Origin: Mycobacterium paraseoulense
Lineage (GTDB): Bacteria; Actinomycetota; Actinomycetes; Mycobacteriales; Mycobacteriaceae
Direction: 5' to 3'
DNA length: 64,000 nucleotides
Assembly (NCBI RefSeq): GCF_010731655.1
Contig: NZ_AP022619.1
Location: 1,860,001-1,924,000 of the forward strand
The position numbers and the translations under genes were made by a program. Numbering within the stretch: position 1 is the first letter of the stretch; the number at the start of each line of letters is the position of its first letter. The notes under the pieces are model-generated. The model was not told the DNA's origin, made no database searches, and saw only the letters and a list, made by a program, of their open reading frames with translations. Of this stretch, positions 4,478-18,739 are shown piece by piece.

Positions 4478-4573
4478 TCCTCCTGGTTGGGCGGCGTGGA
4501 CCTTCAATAACGCTGCGCTCGTGTGAGCTTGGCGTGGCACCGAAATCAAGTGAGCCTTGCACCGATCACAAAG

Positions 4574-4589
4574 TCGACGGTATTGTCGA
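4574..4589. promoter_or_regulatory. Candidate TetR operator, motif 1 (site A)
   Basis: TCGAC-GGTATT-GTCGA: an inverted repeat with five-base arms and a 6-bp spacer between the divergent double CoA-transferase and amidohydrolase genes. It belongs to a set of six similar sites in the first 21 kb. Function is inferred from recurrence and position. Confidence 0.5.
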
Positions 4590-4662
4590 ATTTAGCGCAT
4601 TGTGACGCGCGCCTCAATAGGCAGCGTCCAGAAGCCGATCGCCACGGTCAACCGGAGGAATG

Positions 4663-5934
4663 ATGCTCAAACTGTTCAGCGTCGACGACCACATCGTCGA
4701 GCCAGCCGATGTCTGGACCAAGCGGCTGCCGCGGAAGTTTCAGGAGAAGGGTCCGCACGTCATCGACGCCGACGGCCGCCAATTCTGGGTCTTCGAAGAC
4801 CAGCGTTCCGCCACAATGGGTCTCAACGCCGTGGCAGGCAAGGCCCCGGAGGACTGGGGCACCGATCCGGTCCGCTTCACCGACCTGATTCCGGGCTGCT
4901 ACGACGCTGCCGCGCGAGCCGACGACTTCCGTGCCGACGGCATCGTGGGCAGCGTGCTGTTCCCGTCACTCCCGGGCTTCGGCGGCCGAGTGTTCTTCGA
5001 AATGAAGGACAAGGAGCTGGCCGACCTATGCGTGCGGGCCTACAACGACTTCGTGATGGACGAATGGTGTGCTGCCGCCCCGGACATCTTCGTGCCAACC
5101 ATCATCCTGCAACTGTGGGACCCAGACCTCGCCGCAGCGGAGTTGCGTCGGTGCGCAGAGCGCGGCGCTCGCGCGGTCTCTTTCCCCGAGAACCCGAGCT
5201 ACCTGAAGCTGCCCTCACTACACACTGATCACTGGGATCCGGTCTTTCACGCCTTCGAGGAGACCGGTGTGGTCTGCTCGATGCATCTGGGCTCCAGCGG
5301 GCACATCCCCATTCCCACGCCGGACTCGCATTTCAGTGTGGCGATCACGGCCGCGCCCGCCGTGGTGGGCATCGAGACCATCACCGACATGCTGTTCGGC
5401 ACCCTGCCCCGACGTTTTCCAAACGTGCAATTCGTCATGACCGAGGGCGGTATCGGCTACATACCCTACGTGCTCGAACGCGCCGACTTCGTCTGGGGCA
5501 AGCACCGGTTCTGGGCGCCGTTCGGGGATATCAAACCGTCGGAAATCTTCAATCGGCAGTTCGCTGTGTGCGCCGTCAACGAATCATTCGGGCTTAGTGA
5601 GGATTCCATCGATCGCATCGGCATAGACAACATTTTGTGGGAGTCAGACTACCCGCACTCGGAGACCGCCTGGCCATCCAGCCAGACCGAGGTCGCCAAG
5701 GCGCTGGGACACCTCACACCGGAGCAGATCGACAAGATCACCCACAGGAACGCCGAGCGGATCTTCAACTTCCCGGTGACCAAAGAAGCCAAGGCCGCTG
5801 GCATCCAGCATCGCCTCGATAATGCCGAAGCCAACGGCGAGCGCCCCCAAGCCATCAAGGCCTACCCCGTTGACGCCACCCCCAACGGCGACCTACCCGA
5901 CGTCACCCGTGTCGTCGCAGGAACCGCGAAGTAG
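4663..5934 (+). CDS. Amidohydrolase family protein (PF04909-like, TIM barrel)
   Basis: 423 residues. Metal-dependent hydrolase/decarboxylase of the amidohydrolase-2 type: N-terminal VDDHIVEP with a probable metal His, a central MHLGSSGH His segment, MTEGGIGY, and the C-terminal WESDYPHSETAWP containing the conserved Asp. Family members hydrolyse or decarboxylate ring or carboxyl substrates, often CoA-pathway intermediates; the substrate here is unknown. GGAGG lies one base before ATG 4660 and four before ATG 4663; the second matches the N-terminus of the paralogue at 26123-27274 (about half identical by eye) and was chosen. Divergent from the double CoA-transferase, sharing operator-like site A. 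Confidence 0.87.
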   Translation: MLKLFSVDDHIVEPADVWTKRLPRKFQEKGPHVIDADGRQFWVFEDQRSATMGLNAVAGKAPEDWGTDPVRFTDLIPGCYDAAARADDFRADGIVGSVLFPSLPGFGGRVFFEMKDKELADLCVRAYNDFVMDEWCAAAPDIFVPTIILQLWDPDLAAAELRRCAERGARAVSFPENPSYLKLPSLHTDHWDPVFHAFEETGVVCSMHLGSSGHIPIPTPDSHFSVAITAAPAVVGIETITDMLFGTLPRRFPNVQFVMTEGGIGYIPYVLERADFVWGKHRFWAPFGDIKPSEIFNRQFAVCAVNESFGLSEDSIDRIGIDNILWESDYPHSETAWPSSQTEVAKALGHLTPEQIDKITHRNAERIFNFPVTKEAKAAGIQHRLDNAEANGERPQAIKAYPVDATPNGDLPDVTRVVAGTAK

Positions 5935-5973
5935 GCCAAGGGTTGTGGCTGGCCAAGCGAGCTCGCGGGGTTG

Positions 5974-6096
5974 CTATGCATCGCGGCCAAGCTTGGAAGC
6001 TAGCCCGTCGAGAAATACGTCGAGCTCCCATTGGAATCGTTCGGCATCGGTACGTGTCTGCAACGCAGGCCGTCCCGACGCCTTCGCAGCGTCATT
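5974..6096 (-). pseudogene. TetR-family regulator, C-terminal remnant
   Basis: Between the amidohydrolase and LLM genes the reverse strand encodes about 40 residues ending in TAG: a stretch like ERFQWELDVFLDGLAS near the end. This matches the ligand-domain C-terminus seen in some TetR proteins (the pattern xFxxGLDxxLDGL). No HTH part or start codon is left; the upstream side runs straight into the LLM stop. I read it as a stub left by deletion or rearrangement. The identification rests on a short stretch and is moderate only. Confidence 0.45.
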
Positions 6097-6098
6097 CC

Positions 6099-7310
6099 CT
6101 ACTTGAACTCACCGCCGATCCCCAGATAGCCGAGTTGAGGACCGGCGGCCGCGTCCACCGAATTCTGTTCCTTGACAATGGATACCAGTTTCGTGAGGTT
6201 GGCGGCGGCCGTCTCGCCTGTGCTGAGGTCGGCGGCCGTCGAATGGTCGATGACGCACGCGTAATTGAGACCCGCGTCGAAGTAGGCGTTCAGCTCCGAA
6301 GCCACCTTCTCCGCCGATCCACTCATATGACCCATGTCGCGCGATGCCTCCATGGGAACTCGCGAGATAGCCTCACGGACGTACTCCGCCGAGTACGACT
6401 CAGGCTTCATGTGACGGGCATAGGACCACTCGTCGCCGAGCGGATGCTCAAAACCGAAGCGCCGCCAATCCGCGCCGGACACCGCGCCGTAAACGATGGT
6501 GTCCCAACGCAAATATGCCGATCCCGCCAATCTATCGATCTCGTCCGGATCGTCGTTCATCAGGACGAGCACGCTGGCGGCGAAGCGCAGTTCATCAGGA
6601 TCGCGGCCGGCTTGTTCGGCACCTTCCCGCACCAGGGCGACGTCTTTTGCGAATTGCTCAGGTCCGCCTAGGCACATACCGGGCAGGTTCGTCAACAGCC
6701 CGTCGGCATAGCGGCCAACCATCCGCAGCGTTTGTGGACTTCCGCCAGTCGCTACCAACACTTTTGGCGGAGAGTTGCCGTAGGGTGCCAGATCGACGAC
6801 GCCGCCCTTCATCGAGTAATACTCACCGTCGAAGTGAACTGGGCGACCTTCGCTATCGAAGATCAGACGCAGGATCTGCAGCGTCTCTTCGAGTTTCTTG
6901 GCTGACCCCTTCCGACTGTGACCGTATTGAACGACGTTCTTGGCCTCACTTGCGCCGACAGCGTAGATGCCTCGGCCATGGCTGATGTGGTCGAGCGTCA
7001 GGAACTTCTGTGCCAACTTGCTCGGCACTTCCCGAACGACATCGACGGCACCGAAGAACAGCTCGATGGTCGAAGTTGACTGGGCCGCAAGAGCCATTAC
7101 CAGGCTGGCGTCGTAAAAGTTGTGCGCCCGCGGCAGATAGGCGGAGGCAGGAATCTCCGGCCAGATGGACTGCGGCAGGTTGTTCTGGATCTGGTCCGTG
7201 AAGGTTATGACGTCTAATCCCATCGCTTCACACTGACGCGCGTATTCCACACACATCTCGATCGGCGGGAAGAACATTCCGTAGACGCCTATCTTGCGCT
7301 CACTGGTCAC
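6099..7310 (-). CDS. LLM-class flavin (F420)-dependent oxidoreductase
   Basis: 403 residues. Bacterial luciferase-like barrel: IGVYGMFFPP at the start, CEAMGLDVITFTDQ, TIELFFGAVDVV, LDHISHGRGIYAVGASEAKN and the VATGGSPQTLRMVGRYADGL segment typical of F420-binding members. In mycobacteria such enzymes usually use F420 or FMN for hydride transfer to ketones, alcohols or unsaturated compounds. GTG 7310 was chosen because it puts IGVYG at the usual family position; a longer frame from TTG 7346 begins inside a TTGACA promoter-like string. Divergent from the TetR gene at 7438, suggesting local regulation. No clear ribosome-binding site. Confidence 0.86.
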   Translation of the reverse strand: MTSERKIGVYGMFFPPIEMCVEYARQCEAMGLDVITFTDQIQNNLPQSIWPEIPASAYLPRAHNFYDASLVMALAAQSTSTIELFFGAVDVVREVPSKLAQKFLTLDHISHGRGIYAVGASEAKNVVQYGHSRKGSAKKLEETLQILRLIFDSEGRPVHFDGEYYSMKGGVVDLAPYGNSPPKVLVATGGSPQTLRMVGRYADGLLTNLPGMCLGGPEQFAKDVALVREGAEQAGRDPDELRFAASVLVLMNDDPDEIDRLAGSAYLRWDTIVYGAVSGADWRRFGFEHPLGDEWSYARHMKPESYSAEYVREAISRVPMEASRDMGHMSGSAEKVASELNAYFDAGLNYACVIDHSTAADLSTGETAAANLTKLVSIVKEQNSVDAAAGPQLGYLGIGGEFK

Positions 7311-7348
7311 TAGACGAGCATGACTAACAACCCTTACACCTGTCAAGG

Positions 7349-7359
7349 TTGAGTCTCAA
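7349..7359. promoter_or_regulatory. Perfect 11-bp palindrome between LLM and TetR genes
   Basis: TTGAG-T-CTCAA, symmetric around its centre, in the 127-bp space between the divergent LLM and TetR genes. A few bases away ACACCTGTCAA resembles one half of motif 1. Position suits an autoregulatory operator; a short palindrome can arise by chance. Confidence 0.3.
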
Positions 7360-7437
7360 GAAATTGCGACTCACATCACCGGGTCCGGGCACGCCGACCC
7401 ACGCCGACGACGGGGGCACTCGGACGCTTAAGCTTTC

Positions 7438-8100
7438 ATGGTGGCTACGGGGCGTACCGGCCGCTTCAACCGCGCGGCGTTCACGGACGAGATGTTGGCG
7501 TTCGTCTCTGATCGCGGACTCGACCAACTGTCCATGCGGTCGCTCGGCGAGGCCCTCGGCGTCTCCCACATGGCCGTCTACCACCACTTCCCCGGCGGCC
7601 GTGACGAGCTGCTACAAGTGACGACGGACGCGGTCCTCTCCCAGATCGACCTTCCGGAGTTCTCCGACGACTGGATCGAGTGGCTAGTCCAAACCGCGGA
7701 GCGCGTCTTCGACGTGCTGAGCAGATATCCCGGTGTGGGTGCGCATGTATTCGCGCGACATCCGGTGTATTTGACCAGCGGTGTCACGGAAATGATCGAT
7801 ACGATCATGGGAACGCTGCTGAACGCAGGCCTAACGGAAGCCGAAGCGGTCGAAGTGTGGACCGTCGGCGAAACGTGGCTGGTGGGTCAGCTGTGGATAG
7901 CCGAGGCGACTCGGGATCGCCCGCCGTCGGCTCCCGCCGAGATTCGAAAGCTCTTCCCGAACAACCGCGCCGCCGACGGCACCCGCAATTTGCGCCGTGT
8001 GGCACGGCTACTCCTTGAAGAGTCGGCTGGCAAGCACCTCTCGTCCGGGCTTCGAGACTTGCTGACAGGGTTCTCGCGGCGCACAGGCCGGACGCGGTGA
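7438..8100 (+). CDS. TetR/AcrR family transcriptional regulator
   Basis: 220 residues, normal TetR length. The N-terminal HTH covers about residues 12-58: AFVSDRGLDQLSMRSLGEAL, then LGVSHMAVYHHFPGGRDEL, the usual recognition helix with YHHF. The C-terminal ligand domain (about 75-210) is divergent, as expected. The fold at VSHMAVYHHF is close to that of the TetR at 49426 (VSAMALYHHV). Divergent from the F420 enzyme and flanked by catabolic genes, it probably represses one or more of these units and responds to a pathway acyl-CoA or substrate. The ligand cannot be told. Confidence 0.9.
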   Translation: MVATGRTGRFNRAAFTDEMLAFVSDRGLDQLSMRSLGEALGVSHMAVYHHFPGGRDELLQVTTDAVLSQIDLPEFSDDWIEWLVQTAERVFDVLSRYPGVGAHVFARHPVYLTSGVTEMIDTIMGTLLNAGLTEAEAVEVWTVGETWLVGQLWIAEATRDRPPSAPAEIRKLFPNNRAADGTRNLRRVARLLLEESAGKHLSSGLRDLLTGFSRRTGRTR

Positions 8101-8150
8101 ATGTGCCAGCGCCATCGGCCCGCCGGAAGGAATCGGTGTGAAACCGACTG

Positions 8151-8615
8151 TCAGGCCGAAGGTTCGTCGCTGCGGAACCCTGGATTGAAGCTGTTGTTGC
8201 CACGGCCCCAAATGGCGCGAAAGCTGCGACGACGCACTTTCCACCCCTGCCCCGTGCGTACGAACTCATCTTCGTAGATCCCGCCCAAAGTGTGCAGCAC
8301 GCCGCCCGCAGCATCGAGTTTCATATGCTGGGCCTGCATGTAATACCTCCCCTTGGCGCTGTTGCCGTCAACCTCGAACAGGTGGTTGGTGAACATGTGT
8401 TGTGTTGCGTCCATTGCCTCTACAGCTGCCCGCGACGCTTCGATGAACGTGTCGACTCCGCGGATGATGAATTCCGGACCAAGGCCGTAATCCAGCTCAA
8501 CGTCATCGGTGAAGAGGTCGCGGAGTTGGTCCCAGCGTCTGCCGTCGAGGGCAAAGGCATACCGATGTGTGAGCTCTAGAAGCGCTTGGATGTCCTCGAG
8601 TGATGGATCGGCCAT
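8151..8615 (-). CDS. NTF2-like / SnoaL-like protein
   Basis: 154 residues with the cone-shaped alpha+beta (NTF2/SnoaL_4) pattern: N-terminal helix DIQALLELTHRYAFALD, then WDQLRDLFTDDVELDYG, TQHMFTNHLFEVDG and the C-terminal sheet GWKVRRRSFRAIWGRG. The family includes ring-hydroxylating dioxygenase beta-like subunits, ketosteroid-isomerase-like isomerases and dehydratases, so an isomerase or dehydratase role is possible but unproven. Start ATG 8615 has CGGAGA five bases upstream. Divergent from the KstD-like flavoprotein at 8820, with operator-like site B between them. Confidence 0.82.
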   Translation of the reverse strand: MADPSLEDIQALLELTHRYAFALDGRRWDQLRDLFTDDVELDYGLGPEFIIRGVDTFIEASRAAVEAMDATQHMFTNHLFEVDGNSAKGRYYMQAQHMKLDAAGGVLHTLGGIYEDEFVRTGQGWKVRRRSFRAIWGRGNNSFNPGFRSDEPSA

Positions 8616-8667
8616 GGCATTCTCCGTTTCCAGCTGAGTCGCGCGGCGCGCATTACGCCATCTCTAA

Positions 8668-8683
8668 TCGACACACTAGTCAA
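8668..8683. promoter_or_regulatory. Candidate TetR operator, motif 1 (site B)
   Basis: TCGAC-ACACTA-GTCAA in the divergent space between the NTF2-like gene and the flavoprotein gene. Its first 13 bases are identical to site D at 16873. Confidence 0.55.
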
Positions 8684-8819
8684 AAATATGAGTACTGCAC
8701 TCGGACCGGTAAAGACGGCTCTACACTGCGAGGCGCCGGCCTGATCACGTAGGTGGATATCTGCCATAGTGCGATCACGTGGAGCGGTCGGATTCACGTT
8801 GTGCGAAAGGAATACCTAG

Positions 8820-10646
8820 ATGGACGGAACGATTGGTACCGCAACCCAGCTGGGTCTACCCGAGGCGGTCGACGTCGCGGTCGTGGGCTCCGGTGCAGCG
8901 GGGTTGGCCGCCGCTCTGTCGGCTGCTGTGGCGGGAAGGTCGGTGCTGATCGCCGAATCCCAGCCGCTGATCGGCGGCACCACCGCGATCTCGGGCGGCG
9001 CTGCGTGGGTGCCGAATCACGGTCTCTCCTACCGTCAACTCGCGGCTTCGGACAGCGCTGAGGACGCCCGCCGCTATCTGCTGGGTGAGGGGCGCGACGC
9101 CGTACTCGACCACGGCTTGGTCGAGGCATTCCTCGATGGGGCGCCGAAGACGGCGCGGTTCATCGAAGCGCATACCTATTTGAGTTGGCTGCCGACGATA
9201 TGGCCTGACTACCACTCCGAGATCGCTGGCGCCTCCAACGTCAGATCGCTACTACCGGGACTCTTCCCGAGCGATCTGCTCGGGACGTCGGCGTCCATGG
9301 TGCGCTCGCCGGCGGGCACCCTTCGGACCAACCCCATGCCGGCGTGGATGCTAGATCGGCTTCCCGGCATCTGGATCGCCGGCCACGCCCTGGTAGGCGC
9401 CTTGCTGGAGGCATGCCTGCGGCAGGGGGTGGCGGTCCGGACATGCGCGCCCGCCGCTCGACTCGTCGAAGGCGATTCGGGCGTATCGGGTCTGGTCATC
9501 TCGTCTGACCGGGAATTCCGTTCCGTCGCAGTGCGCCGAGGCGTAATACTCGCCAGCGGTGGATTCGAGGGATCGGACGAGTTCACCGACAAATATCTCG
9601 ACGGCAGCTTCGGCGCACAGATAAGCCCCGCTGGCCACGACGGCATCGCCCTGACGATGGCCGCAGAGGTCAACGCCAGCTTGTCCGCGACCGAGGCCGC
9701 GTGGTGGATGCCCGCCGTGCACGTTCCGGGCGACGAGTCGGACTCCCAGCCCACCAGTCGAATCTTGCTCGGCGAACGCGGACTGCCCCACACGATCATG
9801 GTGAACCGCGACGGCGAGCGGTTCGCGAACGAGGCGCGCCCCTACGCCGACATCGGCGCAATCATGCGTCGTGTCGATCCCGGCACAGGGGTGATGCCGA
9901 ACGCAGTGGCGTGGATGCTCTTCGACGACTACTACTGGCGGCGTTACGGATTCTTCGATTGGCCACCCGGCTCGGAACCTCCTTCGTTCCTTGTCCGAGC
10001 GCACAGTCTCGACGAGTTGGCGCGCCGTTGTGGAATCGATGCCGACGGTCTCACACGCACTGTCGCAGCCTTCAACCCACTGGCCAGGCAAGGCCGCGAT
10101 CCGCAGTTCAACCGTGGCGGAACTACCTACGAACGCTTCTTCGGTGACTACCATCCCCGGCTCGGACGGCTGGCGCCCCTTAGTCGGTTCCTATCGGCCA
10201 CGGCACAGGTACACCGCGTCGCCGCAGCCGCGGCCGGCCCGGTCGTCGCACCGCTGGCAGCGCGCGTCGCCCGCCGCCGCGAACCCGACCGACTGCGAGA
10301 GCGAGCTGTCCCGCTACTCGCAAAGTATCTACGCGCCTACCTGAAGAGTCCTGCGAGCAGCGTCCTCGGCCCGATCGATTCGCCGCCTTACTACGCAGTC
10401 CGCGTCGACGCCAGCGCGCTCGCAACTGTCGGGGGTCCGCGCACCGACGCCCACGCACGCGTCCTCGACGAGGGCGGAGCGGTGATCCCTGGGCTTTATG
10501 CGGCCGGCAATGCAGGCGGTGCGGCGACCGGTGGGTTCTACGGCGGAGCGGGATGCACAATCTCGCTCGCGCTCACCTTTGGTCATCTGGCTGGACGCCA
10601 CGCCGCATCCCGATCAGCGGATGGTGCTGACCGTCAACCGGTCTGA
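8820..10646 (+). CDS. FAD-dependent oxidoreductase, 3-ketosteroid-dehydrogenase/fumarate-reductase type
   Basis: 608 residues. N-terminal dinucleotide fold GSGAAGLAAAL near residue 20 followed by LIGGTTAISGGAAWVPNH, typical of KstD-like flavoproteins. The C-terminal FAD-binding end is GLYAAGNAGGAATGGFYGG, then GCTISLALTFGHLAGRHAA. SPPYYAVRV near residue 520 matches the place of the active-site Tyr of ketosteroid delta-1 dehydrogenases. Family enzymes introduce C=C bonds next to a ketone or reduce them. Whether the substrate is a steroid is not known. Length is somewhat above typical KstD (about 510-570), with an extra segment around 460-500. AAAGGAA precedes the ATG. Divergent from the NTF2-like gene. 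Confidence 0.86.
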   Translation: MDGTIGTATQLGLPEAVDVAVVGSGAAGLAAALSAAVAGRSVLIAESQPLIGGTTAISGGAAWVPNHGLSYRQLAASDSAEDARRYLLGEGRDAVLDHGLVEAFLDGAPKTARFIEAHTYLSWLPTIWPDYHSEIAGASNVRSLLPGLFPSDLLGTSASMVRSPAGTLRTNPMPAWMLDRLPGIWIAGHALVGALLEACLRQGVAVRTCAPAARLVEGDSGVSGLVISSDREFRSVAVRRGVILASGGFEGSDEFTDKYLDGSFGAQISPAGHDGIALTMAAEVNASLSATEAAWWMPAVHVPGDESDSQPTSRILLGERGLPHTIMVNRDGERFANEARPYADIGAIMRRVDPGTGVMPNAVAWMLFDDYYWRRYGFFDWPPGSEPPSFLVRAHSLDELARRCGIDADGLTRTVAAFNPLARQGRDPQFNRGGTTYERFFGDYHPRLGRLAPLSRFLSATAQVHRVAAAAAGPVVAPLAARVARRREPDRLRERAVPLLAKYLRAYLKSPASSVLGPIDSPPYYAVRVDASALATVGGPRTDAHARVLDEGGAVIPGLYAAGNAGGAATGGFYGGAGCTISLALTFGHLAGRHAASRSADGADRQPV

Positions 10647-10696
10647 GCGCTGAGCCGAGAATTGGCGCTCGCCCGGATACTTCCGCTATTTGGCGC

Positions 10697-10951
10697 CTAT
10701 CGCTTTTGTAAGGGCGGTTGGGTGCGCTGCCCCCGCAGGCGCTTCTGCACCCGGCCCAGCGCTTCCAATCTGCCCTGCTGAGCCGCGATCTCCTCTTGAT
10801 CAGGTTCCGCGGCCTCCTCGAGTCGTGCGATGAGATCTCTGGTGCGGACCTGCTCGCGGTAGAGGCGTGCGTCGGCCTCCTGAAAGGTGATGAGGTCCAT
10901 CTCTTCGGCAAGTGGGTCGTGCTCGGGAGGCGAGCTATCGTCGCTAATCAA
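10697..10951 (-). CDS. Small charged coiled-coil protein, unknown function
   Basis: 84 residues, highly charged, with heptad-like runs (TFQEADARLYREQVRTRDLI and EEIAAQQGRLEALGRVQKRL). No family recognised. It follows the SDR at 11000-11758 on the same strand, 48 bases downstream, so could be its last co-transcribed gene. The only full-length start is TTG 10951 with AAAGG about eleven bases upstream; ATG 10900 would give 67 residues. Codon composition looks like neighbouring genes, which is the main reason to keep it. It may be a scaffold or accessory subunit, or a spurious ORF. Confidence 0.42.
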   Translation of the reverse strand: MISDDSSPPEHDPLAEEMDLITFQEADARLYREQVRTRDLIARLEEAAEPDQEEIAAQQGRLEALGRVQKRLRGQRTQPPLQKR

Positions 10952-10999
10952 GGGTATGCACCTTTCAGCTCACCACGTTGCCCGAGAGGGCGACCGCGC

Positions 11000-11758
11000 T
11001 CAGACCGCCGTCAGGCCACCGTCGACGACCAGCTCGGAACCGGTCGTATACGACGACGCCTCGGAGGCGAGGAACAACACCATCCTTGCCACCTCGGCGG
11101 GATCGGCCATCCGGTTCATCGGAACGCCCGCCGATATGACGCTACGAGCGTCTTCAGGGAGCACCTGCGCGAGCATGTCGGTCAAGACCCCACCCGGGTG
11201 CACGGAATTCACCCTGATCCCTCTAGGGCCGTATTGCACCGCGGCCGCCTTGGTCATACCGCGGACTGCGAACTTGGCAGTGGTGTAGGCCGCGTTAGGT
11301 GTGAAAGGAGCATGGGACAGGCCACACACCGACGAGATGTTCACGATCGATCCGCCGCCCGCTTGGAGCATCTGCGGGATCACCGCCCGCATCCCGAAGA
11401 ACGCTCCGTGCTGGTCGACGGCAATCACCTTCAGGTAGTCCTCGACGCTGATGTCGGCGACATCGGCGAATGGGCCCGACGTGCCCGCGTTGTTCACCAG
11501 AACATCGATCGAGCCCAGCGTATGGCGGACGGACGAGACCGCGGCAGCCCAGCTGTCCGGATCCGTGACGTCCAACTCGACAAACATCGCGCGCTCGCCC
11601 AAAGCTCCCGCGAGTGCGCGCCCGGCCTCTACCTGGATGTCGGCGACTGCGACCCGGGCACCGGCCGCATGGAGAACCCGCGCGATCTCGGTGCCGATGC
11701 CCTGGGCGGCGCCTGTGACGAGTGCCGTCCTGCCGTCGACCCGGAATGAATCACTCAT
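11000..11758 (-). CDS. SDR family oxidoreductase
   Basis: 252 residues, typical classical SDR length. TGAAQGIG at about 16-23, acidic VADIQ end of beta2 suggesting NAD(H) preference, NNAGTSG near 90, NISSVCG with catalytic Ser, and YTTAK with catalytic Tyr and Lys. The C-terminus TTGSELVVDGGLTAV is standard. Likely oxidises or reduces a secondary alcohol/ketone on a pathway intermediate. It faces the SDR at 11844 across an 85-bp divergent promoter that holds operator-like site C. Confidence 0.92.
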   Translation of the reverse strand: MSDSFRVDGRTALVTGAAQGIGTEIARVLHAAGARVAVADIQVEAGRALAGALGERAMFVELDVTDPDSWAAAVSSVRHTLGSIDVLVNNAGTSGPFADVADISVEDYLKVIAVDQHGAFFGMRAVIPQMLQAGGGSIVNISSVCGLSHAPFTPNAAYTTAKFAVRGMTKAAAVQYGPRGIRVNSVHPGGVLTDMLAQVLPEDARSVISAGVPMNRMADPAEVARMVLFLASEASSYTTGSELVVDGGLTAV

Positions 11759-11804
11759 ATTGCCCCTTGCCCGTTCTTCGATTGTCCGTCACGCTAAGAA
11801 TTAT

Positions 11805-11831
11805 TCGACATACTTGTCAAGTATCTGTCGA
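11805..11831. promoter_or_regulatory. Candidate TetR operator, motif 1, extended (site C)
   Basis: TCGAC-ATACTT-GTCAA followed by GTATCT-GTCGA: three half-sites with an exact 11-bp period. The inner ACTTG-T-CAAGT is a perfect palindrome. Lies between two divergent SDR genes and ends a few bases before the ribosome-binding site of the right-hand one. The spacing would place half-sites on one face of the helix. Confidence 0.55.
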
Positions 11832-11843
11832 GTCATCGGAGGA

Positions 11844-12641
11844 CTGATCATCGACATTCGCGAACGGGTTGTCGTCGTGACCGGAGCCGGTCTTGGCCTG
11901 GGCGCCGCGTTGGCGCGCACGATCAGCGCGAAAGCGCCGGGTGGTCTCGTGATCGCCGACATCGACGAGGAGGCAGCCCACCTGACTGCCGCTAAGTACG
12001 ACAGCTACGGGATTGCTGCGGACATGGGTAGCGAGTCCGGTGTCCGGGCCGTAGTCGACGCCGCAGTCGACCGTTTCGGCAGAGTCGACATGTGGATTGC
12101 CAACGCCGGCACTGGGATAACGTGTGACCCGTTCACGGACGACGCCACCTTCTCCCTCATGTGGAACCTGCATGCGATGTCGCAAGTGTGGGCGGCCAGG
12201 GCATTACTGCCCGGCTGGCTGAAGCGCGGCAGCGGACATTTCGTCGCCGTCGTGTCCTCGAACGCGCTGACCACCAACCCGGTCTCCATGGGCTATGCGA
12301 TGACGAAGCACGCTCAACTCGCGGCCGTGGAATGGCTGGCCATGACCTACGGCGCGGCCGGCGTCACCACTACTGCGTTCTGCCCCAAGGGAATGCGGAC
12401 GCCACTACTGGAGCAGCACGCGCAGACGAATGCCTATGCCCGCGCGGCGCTCGCGGACGCGATCACACCCGAACAGGCCGCATCGATCCTCGTCGCAGCA
12501 ATCGAGGAGGGTCGCAGCATCGCTCACACTCACCCGGCGGTACTGGACGACGCCCGACTGAGGCTGGACGACCATGCCGCGTACCTGCGCACGCTCGAGC
12601 AGTTGCACGCGCTGGTTCCTGAGATCGGCGTTCCGCGTTGA
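11844..12641 (+). CDS. SDR family oxidoreductase with non-standard start codon
   Basis: About 265 residues. TGAGLGLG near 14-21, ANAGTG near 92, SSNAL with the Ser and YAMTK with Tyr/Lys. The C-terminal part (PEQAASILVAAIEEGRS) is that of SDRs acting on lipophilic substrates. No ATG, GTG or TTG lies at a workable distance from the clear ribosome-binding site CGGAGGA at 11837-11843. Candidates are CTG 11844, ATC 11847, ATC 11850 or ATT 11856, with ATC 11850 best by spacing. In-frame GTG codons upstream would start inside the divergent promoter. I place the left end at CTG 11844; the true start may be a few codons later. Overlaps the next SDR by four bases. Confidence 0.82.
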   Translation: MIIDIRERVVVVTGAGLGLGAALARTISAKAPGGLVIADIDEEAAHLTAAKYDSYGIAADMGSESGVRAVVDAAVDRFGRVDMWIANAGTGITCDPFTDDATFSLMWNLHAMSQVWAARALLPGWLKRGSGHFVAVVSSNALTTNPVSMGYAMTKHAQLAAVEWLAMTYGAAGVTTTAFCPKGMRTPLLEQHAQTNAYARAALADAITPEQAASILVAAIEEGRSIAHTHPAVLDDARLRLDDHAAYLRTLEQLHALVPEIGVPR

Positions 12642-13393
12642 CCGGCAACCGATTGGCAGGTCGGTTTGCCGTCGTCATCGGCGGTGGCGCGGGGATCGGA
12701 CGGGCGATCGCGCTGCAGCTGGCCCGCGATGGCGCTCACGTGTCGGTGGTGGGTCGCACAGCTGCCCGGCTGGCCGAGACCGCATCGTTGGCGAGCTCTC
12801 CCATGGCGACGCACGTCTGCGACATCACGGATCATCGAGCGGTCGAGCATCTTGCTGAGAACATCGCGCAGCAAAATGGTGGGCTGGACATCCTGATCTG
12901 CAACTCCGCCATCGGAGTGAATGCGATGCTGCACGAGACATCCGTCGGAGACCTCGACGCCATCATCGCCACCAATATCCGCGGCACATACCTGTGTCTG
13001 CAAATGGGAATTCGACTGATGTCAGCCTCAGGAGGAGGTGCCGTAGTCGTCGTCGGCAGCCTCGGCGCGCTTCGTCCGGCACCCCGAGCATCGGCGTACG
13101 GCATGAGTAAGGCGGCGACCCACGCCATGGCTCGCCACGCCGCGATCGAGTACGCAGACAAAGGAATTCGGGTGAATGTCGTCGCTCCGGGAGCCACTGA
13201 CACGGACTTGCTGAGCACGGCCGACGACGACGTGCGGGCGCAGGTGGCCGCCGCGATTCCGGACGGCCGCATCGCAGCCCCGGAGGAGATAGCCGAGGTC
13301 GCCGTATTTCTTGCCAGCGACGCGTGCACGCACGTGACCGGTCAGGTGTGGAGTGTCGACGGCGGCTCGTCGATAGGTGCGGCGGGCCGCTGA
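12638..13393 (+). CDS. SDR family oxidoreductase
   Basis: 251 residues. Glycine motif in GGGAGIGRAI near 14-23, CNSA in place of the usual NNAG near 85, VGSLGALRP with the Ser and YGMSK with catalytic Tyr/Lys; C-terminal HVTGQVWSVDGGSS. The TTG start at 12638 overlaps the TGA of the preceding SDR, so the two are coupled, giving three SDRs in a row here. The altered NNAG motif is conservative and need not abolish activity. Convergent with the CoA-transferase at 13399, five bases apart. Confidence 0.9.
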   Translation: MTGNRLAGRFAVVIGGGAGIGRAIALQLARDGAHVSVVGRTAARLAETASLASSPMATHVCDITDHRAVEHLAENIAQQNGGLDILICNSAIGVNAMLHETSVGDLDAIIATNIRGTYLCLQMGIRLMSASGGGAVVVVGSLGALRPAPRASAYGMSKAATHAMARHAAIEYADKGIRVNVVAPGATDTDLLSTADDDVRAQVAAAIPDGRIAAPEEIAEVAVFLASDACTHVTGQVWSVDGGSSIGAAGR

Positions 13394-13398
13394 TTCGG

Positions 13399-14595
13399 TT
13401 ACCGGGCAATATCCAATTCCGCGAGGATCTCGTCGGTGTGTTCGCCCGGGGCCGGTGCGTGGCGACGCACCGTAAAGGGTTCGCCGTCAACGATTGCGGC
13501 CGATCCCACGTACGAGATCGGTCCCGCCACCGGATGTTGGCCCTCGACGAAGACGTTGCGGCCGGCGATGTGCGGATCGGCGGCGACCTCGTCGACGCTC
13601 TGATGGGCCGCCCCGAGCGCGAAGCCGTATTCGGCGGCCAGTCTCAGCCACTCGTCCAACGTCTTCGTGGCGATCACCTCGGCAACCAGACGGCGCTCGG
13701 CCTCATCGCCCCAGTCCACCGAATCGTTGGACGTGTCGGCCTGTCGGCCGATCAGGTCGTCGCGCCCTGCAGCCGCCGCCCACTTGTCCCAGAAGCGCTG
13801 CTCGATACAACCGAACAGGACAACCCTGTTATCCGCGGTCTCGTAGAACTGGTAGCGCGAACCCGTCATCTCACCGTCGGATCTGGCGGCCATACCGGAG
13901 CGGTCGGTGATGCGCTCGGCGTTGCGCTGCAACACTATCGGCAACCACGCCGTCATGGCGGTCGCATCCGAACCCGCGACATCGATGTAGGCGCCTACGC
14001 CGGTTTCCCTGGCCCGAAGCAACGCCGCCACGGCCTGCAGTGCGGCATGCAGGCCGCCCACGCTGGTCGCCTCACCACCGAGGTTGGCTCCGTCGTCCTC
14101 GAACGAACCACGCTCGAGCAGACCGTCCTCGCCGCGCTGTACGGCGTGGGCACCGACGAGGGCGTTCATCAGCATCCCGTGGGTCGGAATGCTGGCGTAG
14201 GGGCCGGTGGCGCCGAAACCAGTGTGCTGCACGTACACAAGGCTCGGTTTGCGGGCGCGCATCGCGTCCGGACCCACCCCCAGCTTGTCGCAGACCCCGG
14301 GGCGGTTGCCGTCGACGAAGATGTCCGCGGTGTCGATCAGTCGCCAGAATGTGTCCCGGTCGGCGTCCTCGGTGAGGTCGAGCAGCACCGAGCGCTTGTT
14401 TCTGTTGACCTGGGCGTGCGGCACGCTCACGCCGGGGACGATCTGGCCGAGAAAGTAGCGCAGGTAGTCACCGGCCGGGGGTGACTCGACCTTGATGACA
14501 TCGGCGCCGAGGTCACCGAGCAGCATTCCCACGGTGTCGCCATTGAGCAGCACGGCCGATTCGACCACGCGTACGCCGTCGAGCAGGTTGGGCAC
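13399..14595 (-). CDS. CaiB/BaiF (class III) CoA-transferase, single domain
   Basis: 398 residues, standard length. Opens LLDGVRVVESAVLLNGDTVG, then LLGDLGADVIKVESPPAGDY, NKRSVLLDL, VYVQHTGFGATGPYASIPTH, and AYIDVAGSDATA, where the Asp after GS aligns with the catalytic Asp of the family. Expected to move CoA onto a carboxylic acid intermediate. Clear paralogue of 28206-29459. GTG start with AAGG upstream. Third gene in the unit after two DapB-like dehydrogenases (starts at 16844), downstream of site D. Confidence 0.9.
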   Translation of the reverse strand: MPNLLDGVRVVESAVLLNGDTVGMLLGDLGADVIKVESPPAGDYLRYFLGQIVPGVSVPHAQVNRNKRSVLLDLTEDADRDTFWRLIDTADIFVDGNRPGVCDKLGVGPDAMRARKPSLVYVQHTGFGATGPYASIPTHGMLMNALVGAHAVQRGEDGLLERGSFEDDGANLGGEATSVGGLHAALQAVAALLRARETGVGAYIDVAGSDATAMTAWLPIVLQRNAERITDRSGMAARSDGEMTGSRYQFYETADNRVVLFGCIEQRFWDKWAAAAGRDDLIGRQADTSNDSVDWGDEAERRLVAEVIATKTLDEWLRLAAEYGFALGAAHQSVDEVAADPHIAGRNVFVEGQHPVAGPISYVGSAAIVDGEPFTVRRHAPAPGEHTDEILAELDIAR

Positions 14596-14637
14596 TGTGA
14601 ACCTTCCTTCGATAGTGGTATGCGCGTGGTCGTCCGC

Positions 14638-15747
14638 TCAGCGCATCGCCAAGCCCGAACCGATTCGGCGATGCTGCGGGATGCCGAACACCGGGGCCAG
14701 CAAATGGCCTGGTGGCGCCGCGATCACGCCGGGAATGGCGTTGACGAACGCCGCCACCGACGTCCAGGACTGCGAGTCCATCCAGTGTTCACCGTCGGGA
14801 TCGTCGACATGCCCGCCGTGCCGTATTCCGTTGGCGAACGAAAGTCCCCGGGCATACCGGATCTGCAGTGAAGGCGTGCCCTCCACGGTGATGATCCAGT
14901 CGTTGTCGGCCTCCCAACCGGCGATCTCCAAATCGCACACCCACCGGCAGATGACCGTCACGAACGGCTCCTCGTCAATGATCCCGGTCCAGGAGAACTC
15001 CGTGCCCGCGACCGTTCCCGGCGGGACCGGCGCGCTCGCCCCGGTCAACTCCCGGGTGGTCGTGGCGAAGCGGGCATCCACATCGACCCTGTCGAGCCGC
15101 TGCCCCAGCTGCGCGGCGACGGCATGCGGTGTCTGCCGGTACATGTGGTCGAACATCCCGATGATCTGATCGCGCGGGAAGTCATCGGGTTTCGCGCCGA
15201 AACCCAGAAGCGGATAGACGTGCGCATCGAGGTCGGTGCAGTCCATCCGCTCGAGGACATCGACGTGGGCCACCTCCAACGTATGACCGGCCAAAGTGGT
15301 CGCCAACCGTTCGGCGACGAATCCCGGAGAGGAACCCACAGCCAATACCGACGAGTTTCCACGCCGGCAGGCGTCGTCGACTTCACGCGCGTACCCGTCG
15401 CTGATTCCTGCCGGATAAAAGTAATCGTGCGCGAGCAGGAGATTCTTCCCGCCGGCAAGCAGTCGCAGTGCGTCCGCGTGGCTTTGGGTGGGCTCCAATG
15501 CCACCAGCGGGGTGAAGATCACGACATCAGCGTCCAGCCGGTCGATCTCATCGCGATCGCGGGTGACGGTCACACCGCCGTGCGGGGGCAGGCCGACGAG
15601 TTCCCCGATGTCGCGCCCCTCCTTTTCGGGCGAGAAGGCGAAGACTCCGACCACGTCGAACTCCTCTGGTCGCTGCAGCAGCACCCGTAGCACGAATCCG
15701 CCGAGACGGCCGGGGCCCCAGATGACGACGCGGGTGCGGTTGTTCAT
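14638..15747 (-). CDS. DapB-like NAD(P)-dependent dehydrogenase (copy 1 of tandem pair)
   Basis: 369 residues. N-terminal Rossmann fold VVIWGPGRLGGFVLRVLL and a segment DVVIFTP resembling dihydrodipicolinate reductase and the amine-dehydrogenase-like group (2,4-diaminopentanoate dehydrogenase type). VGSSPGFVAERL in the middle is shared with the next gene (STGLDPGFSSDVL). Expected to oxidise or reduce at a C-N or C-O bond with NAD(P)H; substrate unknown. ATG 15747 overlaps the upstream stop (ATGA), so the two copies are coupled and could form a heteromer. Confidence 0.82.
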   Translation of the reverse strand: MNNRTRVVIWGPGRLGGFVLRVLLQRPEEFDVVGVFAFSPEKEGRDIGELVGLPPHGGVTVTRDRDEIDRLDADVVIFTPLVALEPTQSHADALRLLAGGKNLLLAHDYFYPAGISDGYAREVDDACRRGNSSVLAVGSSPGFVAERLATTLAGHTLEVAHVDVLERMDCTDLDAHVYPLLGFGAKPDDFPRDQIIGMFDHMYRQTPHAVAAQLGQRLDRVDVDARFATTTRELTGASAPVPPGTVAGTEFSWTGIIDEEPFVTVICRWVCDLEIAGWEADNDWIITVEGTPSLQIRYARGLSFANGIRHGGHVDDPDGEHWMDSQSWTSVAAFVNAIPGVIAAPPGHLLAPVFGIPQHRRIGSGLAMR

Positions 15748-16844
15748 TGGCTCACCCGTTGAGCCGTGACGACGTGGCGCGATGGAACCAGCGGCAACTC
15801 AAGTGCGGAGATGAGCCCCGATCGCGCATTCGGCATCTCGCCGATTAGATTGACCAGGCGCATCGCTGTACCGCTGACCGATCCCCACACGTCGCCGGCG
15901 CGCCCGAGGTCGAGATCACACCGCATGTTCGGGTTGCCCGTGATCGTGACGCGATAATTCGATTCACCGACACCGTCGAATGTCGGCCATTCCGGCGCCA
16001 CTTCGGCAGCCATTCGCGTGATGTGCTCGGCGGTGATCACGGCGCGTCCGGCCACCCGGCCTTCACAGGCGACTCGCAGCGCGACCACGGTGCCCGCCTC
16101 CATCAGGCCGACCGAGGTATTCAGATCCTCGTCGTGTACAGCCTTATCCGACGTCCCCACCAGCTCGTCCAGTTCAACGCCAAGGCGGTCGGCCAGCTGA
16201 CGAACCATCGGACCCCAGAAGGCTTCGAAGGCACCGCCGGCGGTGATCGGTGCTTCGTAAGTGGGTGGGCGGCCGAAACCCATGATGTCCCGAATGACCG
16301 GCTCGACGTCGTAGTGGTCGTAGATCCCGATCTCCTGCACAAGCACATGCTCGACCTCATCCGACATCGTCAGTAGTGCAAGCGGCAGAACGTCGCTGGA
16401 GAAGCCGGGGTCCAGTCCCGTCGACAGGAATGTCGAACCACCCTGAGCCGCAGCCTCCTCCAATGGCTTTCGCAAATTCTCGGGCGCAGCGGGCGGGTAC
16501 AACAGGCCCAACAGCGAGATCGTGATGACGTTGACGCCGGCCGACAGCGCCCGCGCGATCTCGGCGACCACCTCAACTTCTCGACCGAGCCCGTTCGCAC
16601 AGTAGCTCACGACGTCGGGCGTCGTCGCCAGCAGTTCGTCGAACGACCCGACAGCGGCGACACCGACAGGGTCGACCCCGATGAGCTCGCCTGCGTCGCG
16701 ACCGATCTTCTCCTCTGACGACACCCAGAGGGCCGTCAACTCCAGGCGATCGTTCGCGAGTATCCCGCGCAATGCCTCCCGACCCGTGAGTCCGGTACCA
16801 ACATGTGCAACTCGGATCCTGGCGCCGACGCCGTCTGAGGTCAT
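15744..16844 (-). CDS. DapB-like NAD(P)-dependent dehydrogenase (copy 2 of tandem pair)
   Basis: 366 residues. Same family as the downstream gene: N-terminal VAHVGTGLTGREALRGILAN Rossmann motif, VSSEEKIGRDAGELIG shared in pattern with the partner, PDVVSYCANGLG, STGLDPGFSSD, and a C-terminal sheet domain with WPTFDGVGESNYRVTITG. Catalytic residues are not clear by eye. First gene of the three-gene unit ending with a CoA-transferase. Site D lies 29 bases upstream of its start, a position suited to repression. The pair suggests a two-step or heteromeric oxidation before CoA transfer (inference). Confidence 0.82.
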   Translation of the reverse strand: MTSDGVGARIRVAHVGTGLTGREALRGILANDRLELTALWVSSEEKIGRDAGELIGVDPVGVAAVGSFDELLATTPDVVSYCANGLGREVEVVAEIARALSAGVNVITISLLGLLYPPAAPENLRKPLEEAAAQGGSTFLSTGLDPGFSSDVLPLALLTMSDEVEHVLVQEIGIYDHYDVEPVIRDIMGFGRPPTYEAPITAGGAFEAFWGPMVRQLADRLGVELDELVGTSDKAVHDEDLNTSVGLMEAGTVVALRVACEGRVAGRAVITAEHITRMAAEVAPEWPTFDGVGESNYRVTITGNPNMRCDLDLGRAGDVWGSVSGTAMRLVNLIGEMPNARSGLISALELPLVPSRHVVTAQRVSQ

Positions 16845-16872
16845 CCTCTACTCCATTCACGTCGGCACTTTA

Positions 16873-16888
16873 TCGACACACTAGTCGG
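16873..16888. promoter_or_regulatory. Candidate TetR operator, motif 1 (site D)
   Basis: TCGAC-ACACTA-GTCGG, 29 bases upstream of the DapB-like/CoA-transferase unit. The first 13 bases match site B exactly; the last base of the right arm departs from the palindrome. Confidence 0.5.
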
Positions 16889-16969
16889 TTTATACCCGAC
16901 AGGAGCCCGCGGGCTTCGCCTGGCGCGAGCGGCGGCGGCACACACGCTCCCGACCCGAACAACGCTGAC

Positions 16970-17848
16970 TCATGGGATGGTCAGACTGGCCGGGCCCGCT
17001 AGCCAGCGCAAAGCCATCAAGGGCAGGATGGTGGTCAACAGGAACGTGACGTTGAGGGTGACAATCCACGACACCAAAATCGCAAGCTGCCCGGGCCGCC
17101 GCTTTACCACTTTGCGCGCCAGCAGTTCGAACACGTCCTCGCCGTTGCCATTTCGCCAGGTGGCGGCGAATACGACCAGCGCCATGAACGGCACCTGCTC
17201 CAATATCGGCCACACAAGTGGGAAGTGTCCGTCACCGACGGCGATGGTCGGGCCGAAGGCAAACTGATAGTGCCACCAGCCGAAGCCGTGTGCGGCGCCT
17301 TCGACGATTAGATCGAAGAGGTAGAACATCGGAAACGAGACGATCGTCGTCGTCATGTATGGATTGGAGTTGGGCCAGCGATCCTTGACGACGTAGAACG
17401 CCTTCTCGAGCGCTAGAAAAAAGCTGACGTAGAAGAAAACGTAGCCAGCGATGAACCACCAGCACCGCACCGGCGACGTCCAGATAGTTTCGCCCCATCC
17501 GTACCTGGCGAATCTCGGGCTGTAGAGCAGGTAGCTGCCCCAGTCCCCATAGGTTTCTTGCCAGAATGCCGAGCCGGATGCCACCGTCAGCAGGAAGACG
17601 CGGCTCAACTTTCGTTCGTGAAAAGATTGCAGGACACCGATTGTCAGGAACACGGCAGCGACTGCCCACATGGCGGTCTCCCACATGCGCGCGCCCACCG
17701 GATCAGTGAGAGTGCCTCCGCTACGCCCCGCGACGAAGAGAACCACGGCCATGAGCGCAATGCCACTGACGACTGTCGCGGCAGTCGGGATCAGTCCTCT
17801 GGCCGAAAGCCGGCGTGCAGGCGGTACGGTGCGCGCTCCAGTGACCAC
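16970..17848 (-). CDS. AveC-like spirocyclase family membrane protein (copy 2)
   Basis: 292 residues, seven or so membrane helices (about 20-42, 55-75, 78-100, 120-145, 165-185, 210-235, 260-285). Shares FWQETYGDWGSYLLY with the DWGSYL segment of copy 1 at 1139-2074. Family role: AveC catalyses spiroketal formation in Streptomyces; here no polyketide pathway is present and the reaction is unknown. GTG 17848 was chosen since GGAGGAGA sits about five bases upstream; the open frame continues to TTG 17914, but that TTG is part of operator-like site E. Monocistronic or the second gene after the TetR at 17963. Confidence 0.72.
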   Translation of the reverse strand: MVTGARTVPPARRLSARGLIPTAATVVSGIALMAVVLFVAGRSGGTLTDPVGARMWETAMWAVAAVFLTIGVLQSFHERKLSRVFLLTVASGSAFWQETYGDWGSYLLYSPRFARYGWGETIWTSPVRCWWFIAGYVFFYVSFFLALEKAFYVVKDRWPNSNPYMTTTIVSFPMFYLFDLIVEGAAHGFGWWHYQFAFGPTIAVGDGHFPLVWPILEQVPFMALVVFAATWRNGNGEDVFELLARKVVKRRPGQLAILVSWIVTLNVTFLLTTILPLMALRWLAGPASLTIP

Positions 17849-17898
17849 AGCGATTCTCCTCCACTCCAGAGGTGCCCTGAGGCTGAGGCAAGCAAAAG

Positions 17899-17914
17899 TC
17901 AACGCTATTGTCAA
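17899..17914. promoter_or_regulatory. Candidate TetR operator, motif 1 (site E)
   Basis: TCAAC-GCTATT-GTCAA, 50 bases upstream of AveC-like copy 2 and between it and the TetR stop. The reverse strand reads TTGACA, so the site could overlap a -35 element. Confidence 0.5.
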
Positions 17915-17962
17915 GAATGCACGACCATCGCGCGACTTAACGGCTAGACTGTTCGCAGCGTC

Positions 17963-18616
17963 TCAGTTCGCAGGATCACTGTGCGCGCTTGCCCAAATGA
18001 TCTGGGCGATACTGCGGCAGACTGCCGCTCCCTTCACCGGAGCGCCCGCGACGCGCCAGTGGTACCAGAAGCGTTCGATCATCGACTGTATTGCGAGCCC
18101 TTGCACCATCGGATCGATACCCGGCAGGCGCTTGCCGCCGCGGAGCTTGATCAGCGCTTGAGACAAGATCTTGGCGCCGGTCATCTCGGCAGTAATGCTC
18201 CATTCCCGTAGTTCCGCGTGAGCGTACGCAGCTTGGAACGCGGCGTGGACGAAGGATCCGTGTTCGTCCCAGAAGGCGAGGTACTCCTCCACCCAGCCCG
18301 CAACGTCGTCGATGGTGGCCGCGTGGTCCATCTGCCGCAAACCCTCGGCGGCGACGATGCCAGCTTCCTCGGCATCGTGTCCGATGGTGAGAAGCACGTC
18401 CTGCTTGCTGGTGAAGTACGTGTAAAACGATGCACGTCGGATGCCGCTCGCCTCAGTGATGTCGCTGATCGACGTGGCGTCGTAGCCTTTCTCCAGCAGT
18501 AGGCGCTTGGTCTCGACCATGATGCGCATCTTCGTCCGCAGTCCTTTACGGCCGATGTCCGATGCCGGTCCGGTTTGTCGGACGCTGGTCTGCGGCCGCG
18601 GGGAGGTCCTAGGCAT
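17963..18616 (-). CDS. TetR/AcrR family transcriptional regulator
   Basis: 217 residues. After a basic N-terminal tail, the HTH covers about residues 28-75: AxSISDITEASGIRRASFYT, then YFTSKQDVL. The C-terminal domain contains EEYLAFWDEHGSFVHAAFQA and MIERFWYHW, as in mycobacterial TetR proteins near catabolic operons. ATG 18616 was preferred to the longer frame from 18730, which is out of pattern and runs through the promoter. It faces the ALDH/P450 operon across a 192-bp gap holding site F, and site E lies just past its stop. It is therefore my preferred candidate for the motif 1 regulator. Confidence 0.88.
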   Translation of the reverse strand: MPRTSPRPQTSVRQTGPASDIGRKGLRTKMRIMVETKRLLLEKGYDATSISDITEASGIRRASFYTYFTSKQDVLLTIGHDAEEAGIVAAEGLRQMDHAATIDDVAGWVEEYLAFWDEHGSFVHAAFQAAYAHAELREWSITAEMTGAKILSQALIKLRGGKRLPGIDPMVQGLAIQSMIERFWYHWRVAGAPVKGAAVCRSIAQIIWASAHSDPAN

Positions 18617-18627
18617 ATCTAGATTTT

Positions 18628-18635
18628 GACATGTC
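18628..18635. promoter_or_regulatory. Short palindrome upstream of TetR gene
   Basis: GACATGTC, 12 bases upstream of the TetR start codon on the reverse strand, inside TTTTGACATGTCCGG. It resembles motif 1 arms with a shorter spacer, so it could be an autoregulatory half-site pair. Weak evidence. Confidence 0.22.
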
Positions 18636-18723
18636 CGGGCAGTATGCGACGGCAACCGCGCCCGACACTGCCCTACACACCAACACCCGAACCACACAGG
18701 TTTTCGCCATCCGGCAGAGGGAA

Positions 18724-18739
18724 TCGACACTCTTGTCAG
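18724..18739. promoter_or_regulatory. Candidate TetR operator, motif 1 (site F)
   Basis: TCGAC-ACTCTT-GTCAG, 70 bases upstream of the ALDH start and about 108 bases upstream of the divergent TetR start. Links the TetR gene to motif 1. Confidence 0.55.

Follow-up and report, generated by a model that had tools for sequence, protein, structure and literature searches.

Genes and sites at the locus

The DNA analysed here is a window of 64,000 nucleotides from Mycobacterium paraseoulense (positions 1860001-1924000 on the single 6.09-Mb contig NZ_AP022619.1; genome label G000), and the named homologues of its proteins are found in Mycobacterium and Mycolicibacterium records. In the first 21 kb of the window, here called region A, six short near-palindromic sites lie before genes of apparently catabolic function. 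It is considered highly probable that these sites are the operators of one regulon, in which the catabolic genes, and the regulator gene itself, would be repressed by the TetR-family protein encoded at 17963 (TetR 17963). As judged from the distribution of its sites, the regulon is larger than region A, yet it does not cover all of that region. Below, positions of up to five digits refer to the window and seven-digit positions to the genome.

In a first-pass annotation, the six sites had been described as 16-bp near-palindromes at 4574, 8668, 11805, 16873, 17899 and 18724, and all six were found exactly there. The five aligned centres that had been listed were also recovered, ACACTA being common to 8668 and 16873. 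Genes were called with our own codon-model caller, with three start codons re-set and one spurious open reading frame removed. Based on these calls, all six sites are intergenic, with the closest start codon 26-70 bp away, and those at 4574, 8668, 11805 and 18724 do sit between divergent genes, as had been claimed for four of them. The candidate operators, all given on the plus strand with their 16-bp cores, are as follows (SDR, short-chain dehydrogenase/reductase; KSTD, 3-ketosteroid dehydrogenase; ALDH, aldehyde dehydrogenase; CoA, coenzyme A; G318 and G413, the two related genomes introduced below).

Operator 1: 4571..4592, plus strand, core 4574-4589, TCGACGGTATTGTCGA; between the fused CoA-transferase (minus) and the DitZ/PtmU3-like amidohydrolase (plus); equivalents at G318 5133029 and G413 C17:16079
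Operator 2: 8665..8686, plus strand, core 8668-8683, TCGACACACTAGTCAA; between the SnoaL-like gene (minus) and the KSTD-like flavoprotein gene (plus)
Operator 3: 11802..11823, plus strand, core 11805-11820, TCGACATACTTGTCAA; between the SDR 11000-11758 (minus) and the SDR pair (plus); predicted promoter with minus-strand TTGACA 18 bp before TAGCGT
Operator 4: 16870..16891, plus strand, core 16873-16888, TCGACACACTAGTCGG; upstream of the DapB-like/DapB-like/CoA-transferase operon (minus); equivalents at G318 5130076 and G413 C17:21309
Operator 5: 17896..17917, plus strand, core 17899-17914, TCAACGCTATTGTCAA; upstream of AveC-like gene 2 (minus); equivalents at G318 5127466 and G413 C17:22407
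Operator 6: 18721..18742, plus strand, core 18724-18739, TCGACACTCTTGTCAG; between the TetR gene (minus) and ALDH/P450 (plus); predicted promoter with TTGTCA 18 bp before TAGCGT; equivalents at G318 5124085 and G413 C17:28926

The genes that adjoin these sites or follow in the same units are listed below, with percentages for the orthologues in the two relatives.

1139..2101, minus: AveC-like membrane protein copy 1, 28% identical to copy 2; orthologues 75-82%
2114..4477, minus: fused double CoA-transferase, start re-set to ATG 4477; orthologues 76-85%
4660..5934, plus: amidohydrolase-superfamily protein, DitZ and PtmU3 closest among solved structures; orthologues 86-90%
8151..8615, minus: SnoaL-like protein, by site 8668
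8820..10646, plus: 3-ketosteroid-dehydrogenase-like flavoprotein, by site 8668
11000..11758, minus: SDR, by site 11805
11847..13393, plus: two SDRs, by site 11805; first start codon uncertain
13399..14595, minus: family III CoA-transferase
14638..15747, minus: DapB-like oxidoreductase 2
15744..16844, minus: DapB/2,4-diaminopentanoate dehydrogenase-like oxidoreductase 1
16970..17848, minus: AveC-like membrane protein copy 2, start re-set to GTG 17848
17963..18616, minus: TetR-family regulator with TetR_N domain, proposed repressor, start re-set to ATG 18616, 217 amino acids
18809..20272, plus: aldehyde dehydrogenase, regulon, start by the codon-model caller; orthologues 87-88%
20289..21548, plus: cytochrome P450, regulon, closest solved relatives named CYP125MRCA and P450cin; orthologues 83-86%

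Specificity and conservation of the sites

The formula TYGAC-N6-GTCRR, under which the sites had originally been collected, proved both too loose, with 507 forward-strand matches genome-wide, and too short for an operator of about 22 bp. Within the window it is matched at 15 places, 6 of them intergenic (five of the six sites and one other), against an intergenic share of 8.2%; the site at 17899 has one mismatch to it. The union of the six sites with their centres, TCRACRBWMTWGTCRR, gave 10 matches in 6.09 Mb (reversed control, 1), which comprise the six training sites, two more intergenic places (1829439 and 1857700) and two intragenic ones (1624910 and 2468325). In 17 control genomes of the same genus, whose best match to TetR 17963 was weak (E 3e-27 or worse), it was matched 25 times in total, with 0-5 matches in each. 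The specificity of the six sites is thus, on these counts, carried by their centres. Equal frequencies of matches in coding and intergenic DNA across the genome had been named as the result that would speak against a regulon; the tight motif is not distributed in that way, while the loose formula would fare poorly.

A 22-bp matrix was then built solely from eight G000 sites, namely the six of the window together with 1829439 and 1857700, one of which had been flagged as coding owing solely to the spurious reading frame. When 304 kb of G000 were scanned, nine places scored above 20: the same eight and a further left-hand site at 1829343. The sites at 1857700 and 1829439 are intergenic and lie 2.3 kb and 30.6 kb to the left of the window, respectively, and the regulon, as far as the matrix can tell, extends in this direction to genome positions 1829343, 1829439 and 1857700. 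Leftward from 1857700 (1849530-1857664), there are genes for a VWA protein, a CbbQ/NorQ-type AAA protein, an enoyl-CoA hydratase, a COX3-like protein and a Peripla_BP_6 protein, a set that is partly syntenic in G413.

A match to TetR 17963 at E<=1e-30 was detected in three of 396 genus genomes: G000, Mycobacterium sp. NBC_00419 (G318, 84%) and Mycobacterium sp. URHB0044 (G413, 80%; the same locus as L057). A search of named genomes kept 79 loci and yielded one clear orthologue, again that of URHB0044 (80%); the other 78 loci, with identities of 50% or less and often over short stretches, were not used. The search of 248 genomes around G413, many of which overlapped the earlier set, added only two relatives of 35-37%, both in G428. 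Further orthologues of TetR 17963, with 60-80% identity, occur on metagenome contigs. With this matrix, stretches of 120 kb (G318) and 100 kb (G413) were scanned. The seven best places fall between genes in either genome, intergenic DNA making up 6.6% and 9.5% of the respective stretch; the seventh-ranked site of G413 ties with a coding match at 17.7. The sites adjoin orthologues of the SDR at 1829544 (90-94% identical), the Peripla_BP_6 protein at 1856504 (77-78%), the fused CoA-transferase and the amidohydrolase, the DapB-like genes, AveC-like gene 2, the TetR gene and ALDH/P450. Gene order differs among the three genomes, most in G318, and therefore the sites follow the genes.

Alignment of 24 sites (10 from G000, 7 from G318 and 7 from G413) gave the consensus TAATCGACACACTTGTCAAGTA, in which 14 of 22 columns are symmetric. 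The architecture is a 9-4-9 dyad of about 22 bp, TAAYCGACA-N4-TGTCAAGTA, with TAAYCGACA as the left arm and the right arm being the reverse complement of TACTTGACA. When a pattern was fitted to this alignment, the result, WDYCRACDBWMTWGTCRDNWW, covered 20 of the 24 sites and nothing else in the three genomes; it has one match in the 17 control genomes, located in a stretch of G026 without any gene by our caller, and its reversed control gave 3 in 20 genomes. A palindromic operator that is shared by several promoters and rare elsewhere, as observed here, is what characterizes a local repressor regulon of the TetR family (KstR/BkaR kind).

The proposed regulator and rival explanations

TetR 17963 had been proposed as the controller of the sites; it is by far the best candidate and very probably the regulator of one regulon, but the view that region A is wholly one unit did not hold. 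In favour of TetR 17963, both of the related clusters in which the sites are kept also contain its orthologue, and the majority of its TetR relatives are preceded by an operator of the same class. The N-terminus from ATG 18616 is supported by the aligned orthologues, most of which start with the same MPRTSPRP. The protein contains Pfam TetR_N (7.9e-13), and its predicted model (mean pLDDT, the predicted local distance difference test score, 89.4) has nine helices, with the TetR_N helix-turn-helix and an all-helical ligand domain. The best fold matches are to EthR, with FasR, PfmR and FadR lower in the list, and the protein resembles this group in profile as well. Site 18724, which is shared with ALDH, is 107 bp upstream of ATG 18616; in the relatives, too, the TetR gene is preceded by a site, at 5124085 in G318 and, with a weak score of 12.7, at C17:23243 in G413. 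Of the regulator genes identified, two have clear counterparts in the stretches from G318 and G413: 17963 (84% and 80%), which belongs to the cluster in each of the three genomes, and TetR 49426 (about 50% and 79%), which is 31 kb away.

That the sites belong to another regulator, for example TetR 7438, which had been the second candidate, or TetR 49426, is regarded as very unlikely. TetR 7438 does lie inside region A and has a 67% relative on another contig of G413, and TetR 49426 is conserved in both relatives. However, no match to TetR 7438 was found in G318 at E<=1e-15, although this genome keeps seven sites, and the promoter of the gene carries a different dyad, which is probably its own operator and outside the 17963 regulon:

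7350..7373: TGAGTCTCAA-N4-TTGCGACTCA, separating the LLM gene from that of TetR 7438, whose operator it is proposed to be

TetR 7438 was rejected on these two grounds. TetR 49426 was rejected on its promoter element: CCTATACGCGTATGGT is found there, which is common to G413 and in part to G318, and no dyad of the TAAYCGACA-N4 kind was found in that promoter. This element (window 49301-49440; G413 C17:33641-33790) is likely to be the operator of a second conserved regulator. The MarR gene at 21763 was also considered and set aside, as tblastn at 1e-3 gave nothing for it in the stretches from the two relatives.

A different explanation is that the motif is merely a strong sigma-A promoter, TTGACA being the -35 consensus. 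In 11 of the 24 sites, one arm can indeed be read as a -35 hexamer, TTGACA or TTGTCA, that is followed by TANNNT after 17-18 bp and is directed towards the adjacent gene, whereas 5000 shuffles of the flanks averaged 0.74 such sites and never exceeded 5. The arm farther from the -10 is nevertheless conserved as well, 14 of the 22 consensus columns are symmetric, no such -10 accompanies the other 13 sites, and the fitted pattern has no match elsewhere in three genomes that must hold many promoters, which makes a pure promoter highly improbable. The same overlap bears on whether TetR 17963 could be an activator, or both activator and repressor, at these sites, which we consider unlikely. TetR-family activators such as FasR exist (PMC7382501), and the 13 sites that overlap no recognisable -35/-10 pair would suit such a role; but where a promoter is readable the site covers its -35, in agreement with occlusion. 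These promoters are predicted, not mapped, and the -35 overlap supports repression by occlusion. Divergent autoregulation is moreover the usual layout for repressors. Coincidence, in the sense that a codon-biased, G+C-rich pattern chosen by eye finds its matches by chance, is favoured by the abundance of the loose formula; the tight pattern, the cross-species matrix and the control genomes all speak against it, and its probability is considered negligible.

Several observations weigh against a single regulon under TetR 17963, which is nonetheless the explanation that we prefer. The tandem site 1857787 is weak (matrix score 16.6), though still included in the 24-site set. The six-site union pattern alone recovers two of seven cluster sites in G318 and none of seven in G413, so that it was discarded as too strict a cross-species detector and the matrix was required. 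As only 2 of the other 395 genus genomes that were searched have an orthologue of TetR 17963, no more than three genomes underlie the cross-species test. The 11 sites with a -35/-10 reading represent only five distinct promoters (those of SDR 1829544, Peripla_BP_6 1856504, SDR 11000, ALDH and a second Peripla_BP_6 gene in G413), and more than half of the sites lack TANNNT at 17-18 bp. A GntR gene at 1826540, with matches of 64% and 41% in the relatives, could conceivably be the regulator, as could a gene outside the family scan. Two points concern the relatives of TetR 17963 described below: the dyad template was picked after their sites had been seen, and therefore the dyad score is a consistency check; and two of them, 1613808 (score 8.0) and 1597659 (8.5), lack this type of dyad upstream.

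The closest relatives of TetR 17963, which are 25-37% identical to it, are five G000 paralogues (1.57-1.65 Mb), two proteins of G020, one of G013 and two of G428. The 300 bp upstream of each regulator gene were scored against TACTTGACA-N4-TGTCAAGTA (maximum 15). A dyad of the TTGACA-N4-TGTCAA type was found upstream of 8 of the 10 relatives with scores of 11.0-14.0, TetR 17963 itself having 11.5, and 27 more distant TetRs reached 10.0 at most. An earlier score over whole 3-kb loci was abandoned, as it separated relatives and controls more poorly (L151 11.5, best control 11.0). In seven relatives helix 3 reads ISRAGFYTYF, and all seven have a TTGACA-type dyad; TetR 17963 has IRRASFYTYF together with one operator arm containing YCGACA. 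This pairing of helix-3 sequence and operator arm is suggestive only, and the first Arg of IRRAS is absent in some more distant orthologues of TetR 17963. A tentative scenario, which we would not put higher than possible, is that the paralogous TetR repressors of one catabolic island share the ancestral operator ACTTGACA-N4-TGTCAAGT and that their regulons were split by few base changes; the 17963 branch would have swapped one TTGACA arm for YCGACA together with a change in the recognition helix from ISRAGFYTYF to IRRASFYTYF, while the other arm stayed ancestral. If true, this would provide a clean natural series for the co-divergence of a TetR protein and an asymmetric operator, controlling an undescribed terpenoid-CoA pathway.

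The five paralogues lie within 75 kb (1573606-1646631 of G000, loci L041-L045); three of them have the TTGACA-N4-TGTCAA-type dyad upstream, and a fourth, 1613808, has a similar dyad at its 3' end. In G020 (L055:10408-12717), one open frame fuses a TetR domain to what appears by eye to be an acyl-CoA synthetase, behind two tandem TTGACA-type sites.

Catabolic genes, proposed mechanism and known systems

The conserved core of the regulon consists of the P450, ALDH, the fused and single CoA-transferases, two DapB-like oxidoreductases, two AveC-like membrane proteins, an SDR, one or two Peripla_BP_6 proteins and the DitZ/PtmU3-like amidohydrolase. The halves of the fused CoA-transferase match the two subunits of benzylsuccinate CoA-transferase, and homologues of AveC-like copy 2 are named spirocyclase AveC-like, some with PF17198. 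For the genes at sites 8668 and 11805 (the SnoaL-like protein, the KSTD-like flavoprotein and three SDRs), no clear orthologue was found in the 120-kb and 100-kb stretches of the relatives, to which the search was limited: the best matches of the SnoaL-like protein and the SDRs were 37% identical or less, and the flavoprotein had none. These genes therefore look strain-specific, and their units seem to have joined an older core only recently. In the interval between the LLM oxidoreductase gene (6099-7346) and TetR 7438, no site of the TAAYCGACA-N4 kind was found, and these two genes probably form a separate unit. Region A is thus not wholly one unit, and a 'single pathway' is for now an inference. 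Elsewhere in the window (26123-35526), a paralogous set of amidohydrolase, CoA-transferase, fused CoA-transferase, ALDH, SDR and P450 genes has no match to the tight pattern; its amidohydrolase, CoA-transferase, ALDH and P450 are 44-50% identical to the regulon orthologues in the two relatives.

The amidohydrolase at 4660 matches DitZ with 226 bits and PtmU3 with 133 bits. The name DitZ presumably refers to a diterpene degradation cluster of Pseudomonas. The blocks DDH, MHLG, TEGG and SDYPHSE of the amidohydrolase align, as judged by eye, with PtmU3, so that the metal ligands (Asp-x-His, His, Glu, Asp, His and the Glu of PtmU3) appear to be in place; in the alignment with DitZ and PtmU3, the DxH, H, E and DYPH blocks coincide. 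The metal ligands of AibH2 and Glu313 of PtmU3 were described previously (PMC7782822), where PtmU3 was reported as a non-heme diiron beta-hydroxylase of diterpenoid biosynthesis that accepts CoA-ligated substrates; it has been placed among the amidohydrolase-related dinuclear oxygenases (PMC10811679). The dit cluster is described in PMC13063091, a text in which the term DitZ does not occur. Based on these likenesses, a CoA-bound terpenoid- or steroid-like compound is our best guess for the substrate, although a doubtful one.

The proposed mechanism is as follows. A dimer of the 217-residue TetR protein would bind the operators and, without inducer, would block RNA polymerase by covering the -35 box, which is readable in 11 of the 24 sites; through the shared site 18724 it would also repress its own gene. 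A pathway intermediate would release the repressor, a CoA thioester being plausible. With less certainty, the P450 and ALDH may oxidise the terpenoid- or steroid-like compound, the fused and single CoA-transferases may attach CoA, and the DitZ/PtmU3-like amidohydrolase may hydroxylate the CoA ester; this strain may have gained the KSTD-like flavoprotein, the SnoaL protein and the SDRs, whose genes bear the same operator.

By this analysis, a motif picked by eye becomes a defined regulon, with a candidate regulator, members beyond the window and exact operator coordinates, for a catabolic cluster. It also offers a handle on the substrate, as the compound that releases this repressor should be a pathway intermediate, and the paralogous TetR/operator pairs in the same genome represent a test case for the divergence of repressor specificity. 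No paper on this regulator, operator or cluster was found in a literature search, most subscription journals being outside its reach.

Several known systems can be compared with the 17963 regulon, as far as the available parts of the articles cited describe them. PfmR of Thermus thermophilus (3vpr) is the best profile match of TetR 17963 among solved TetR proteins and a good fold match, with 25% identity. FadRSa of Sulfolobus acidocaldarius (6el2/6en8) is also among its solved relatives, although archaeal and about 20% identical over the fold. It represses a 30-kb fatty-acid cluster, binds only four genomic sites and has a lauroyl-CoA-bound structure (PMC6449355); the likeness lies in a TetR-family repressor that controls a cluster via few semi-palindromic sites. 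BkaR (PMC3920632) is likewise a TetR-type repressor that acts on its own gene, recognises a palindrome of 24 bp and governs few genes locally, but its core is GTTA(N)T(N4)A(N)TAAC and it controls branched-chain keto-acid genes. In the KstR regulon of mycobacteria (PMC1995591), a TetR-type repressor and a short palindrome before many lipid-degradation genes are also found, and KstR binds its own promoter with an operator overlapping the promoter, as proposed here. The KstR core TnnAACnnGTTnnA, however, has a 2-bp spacer and partly overlaps the -10, in contrast to the 9-4-9 operator with its -35 overlap; the consensus of the 24 sites does not fit the operator of the KstR regulon proper, and TetR 17963 was found in only three of the 396 genus genomes. 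The 17963 regulon is, in this company, a well-defined case of a common kind of system.

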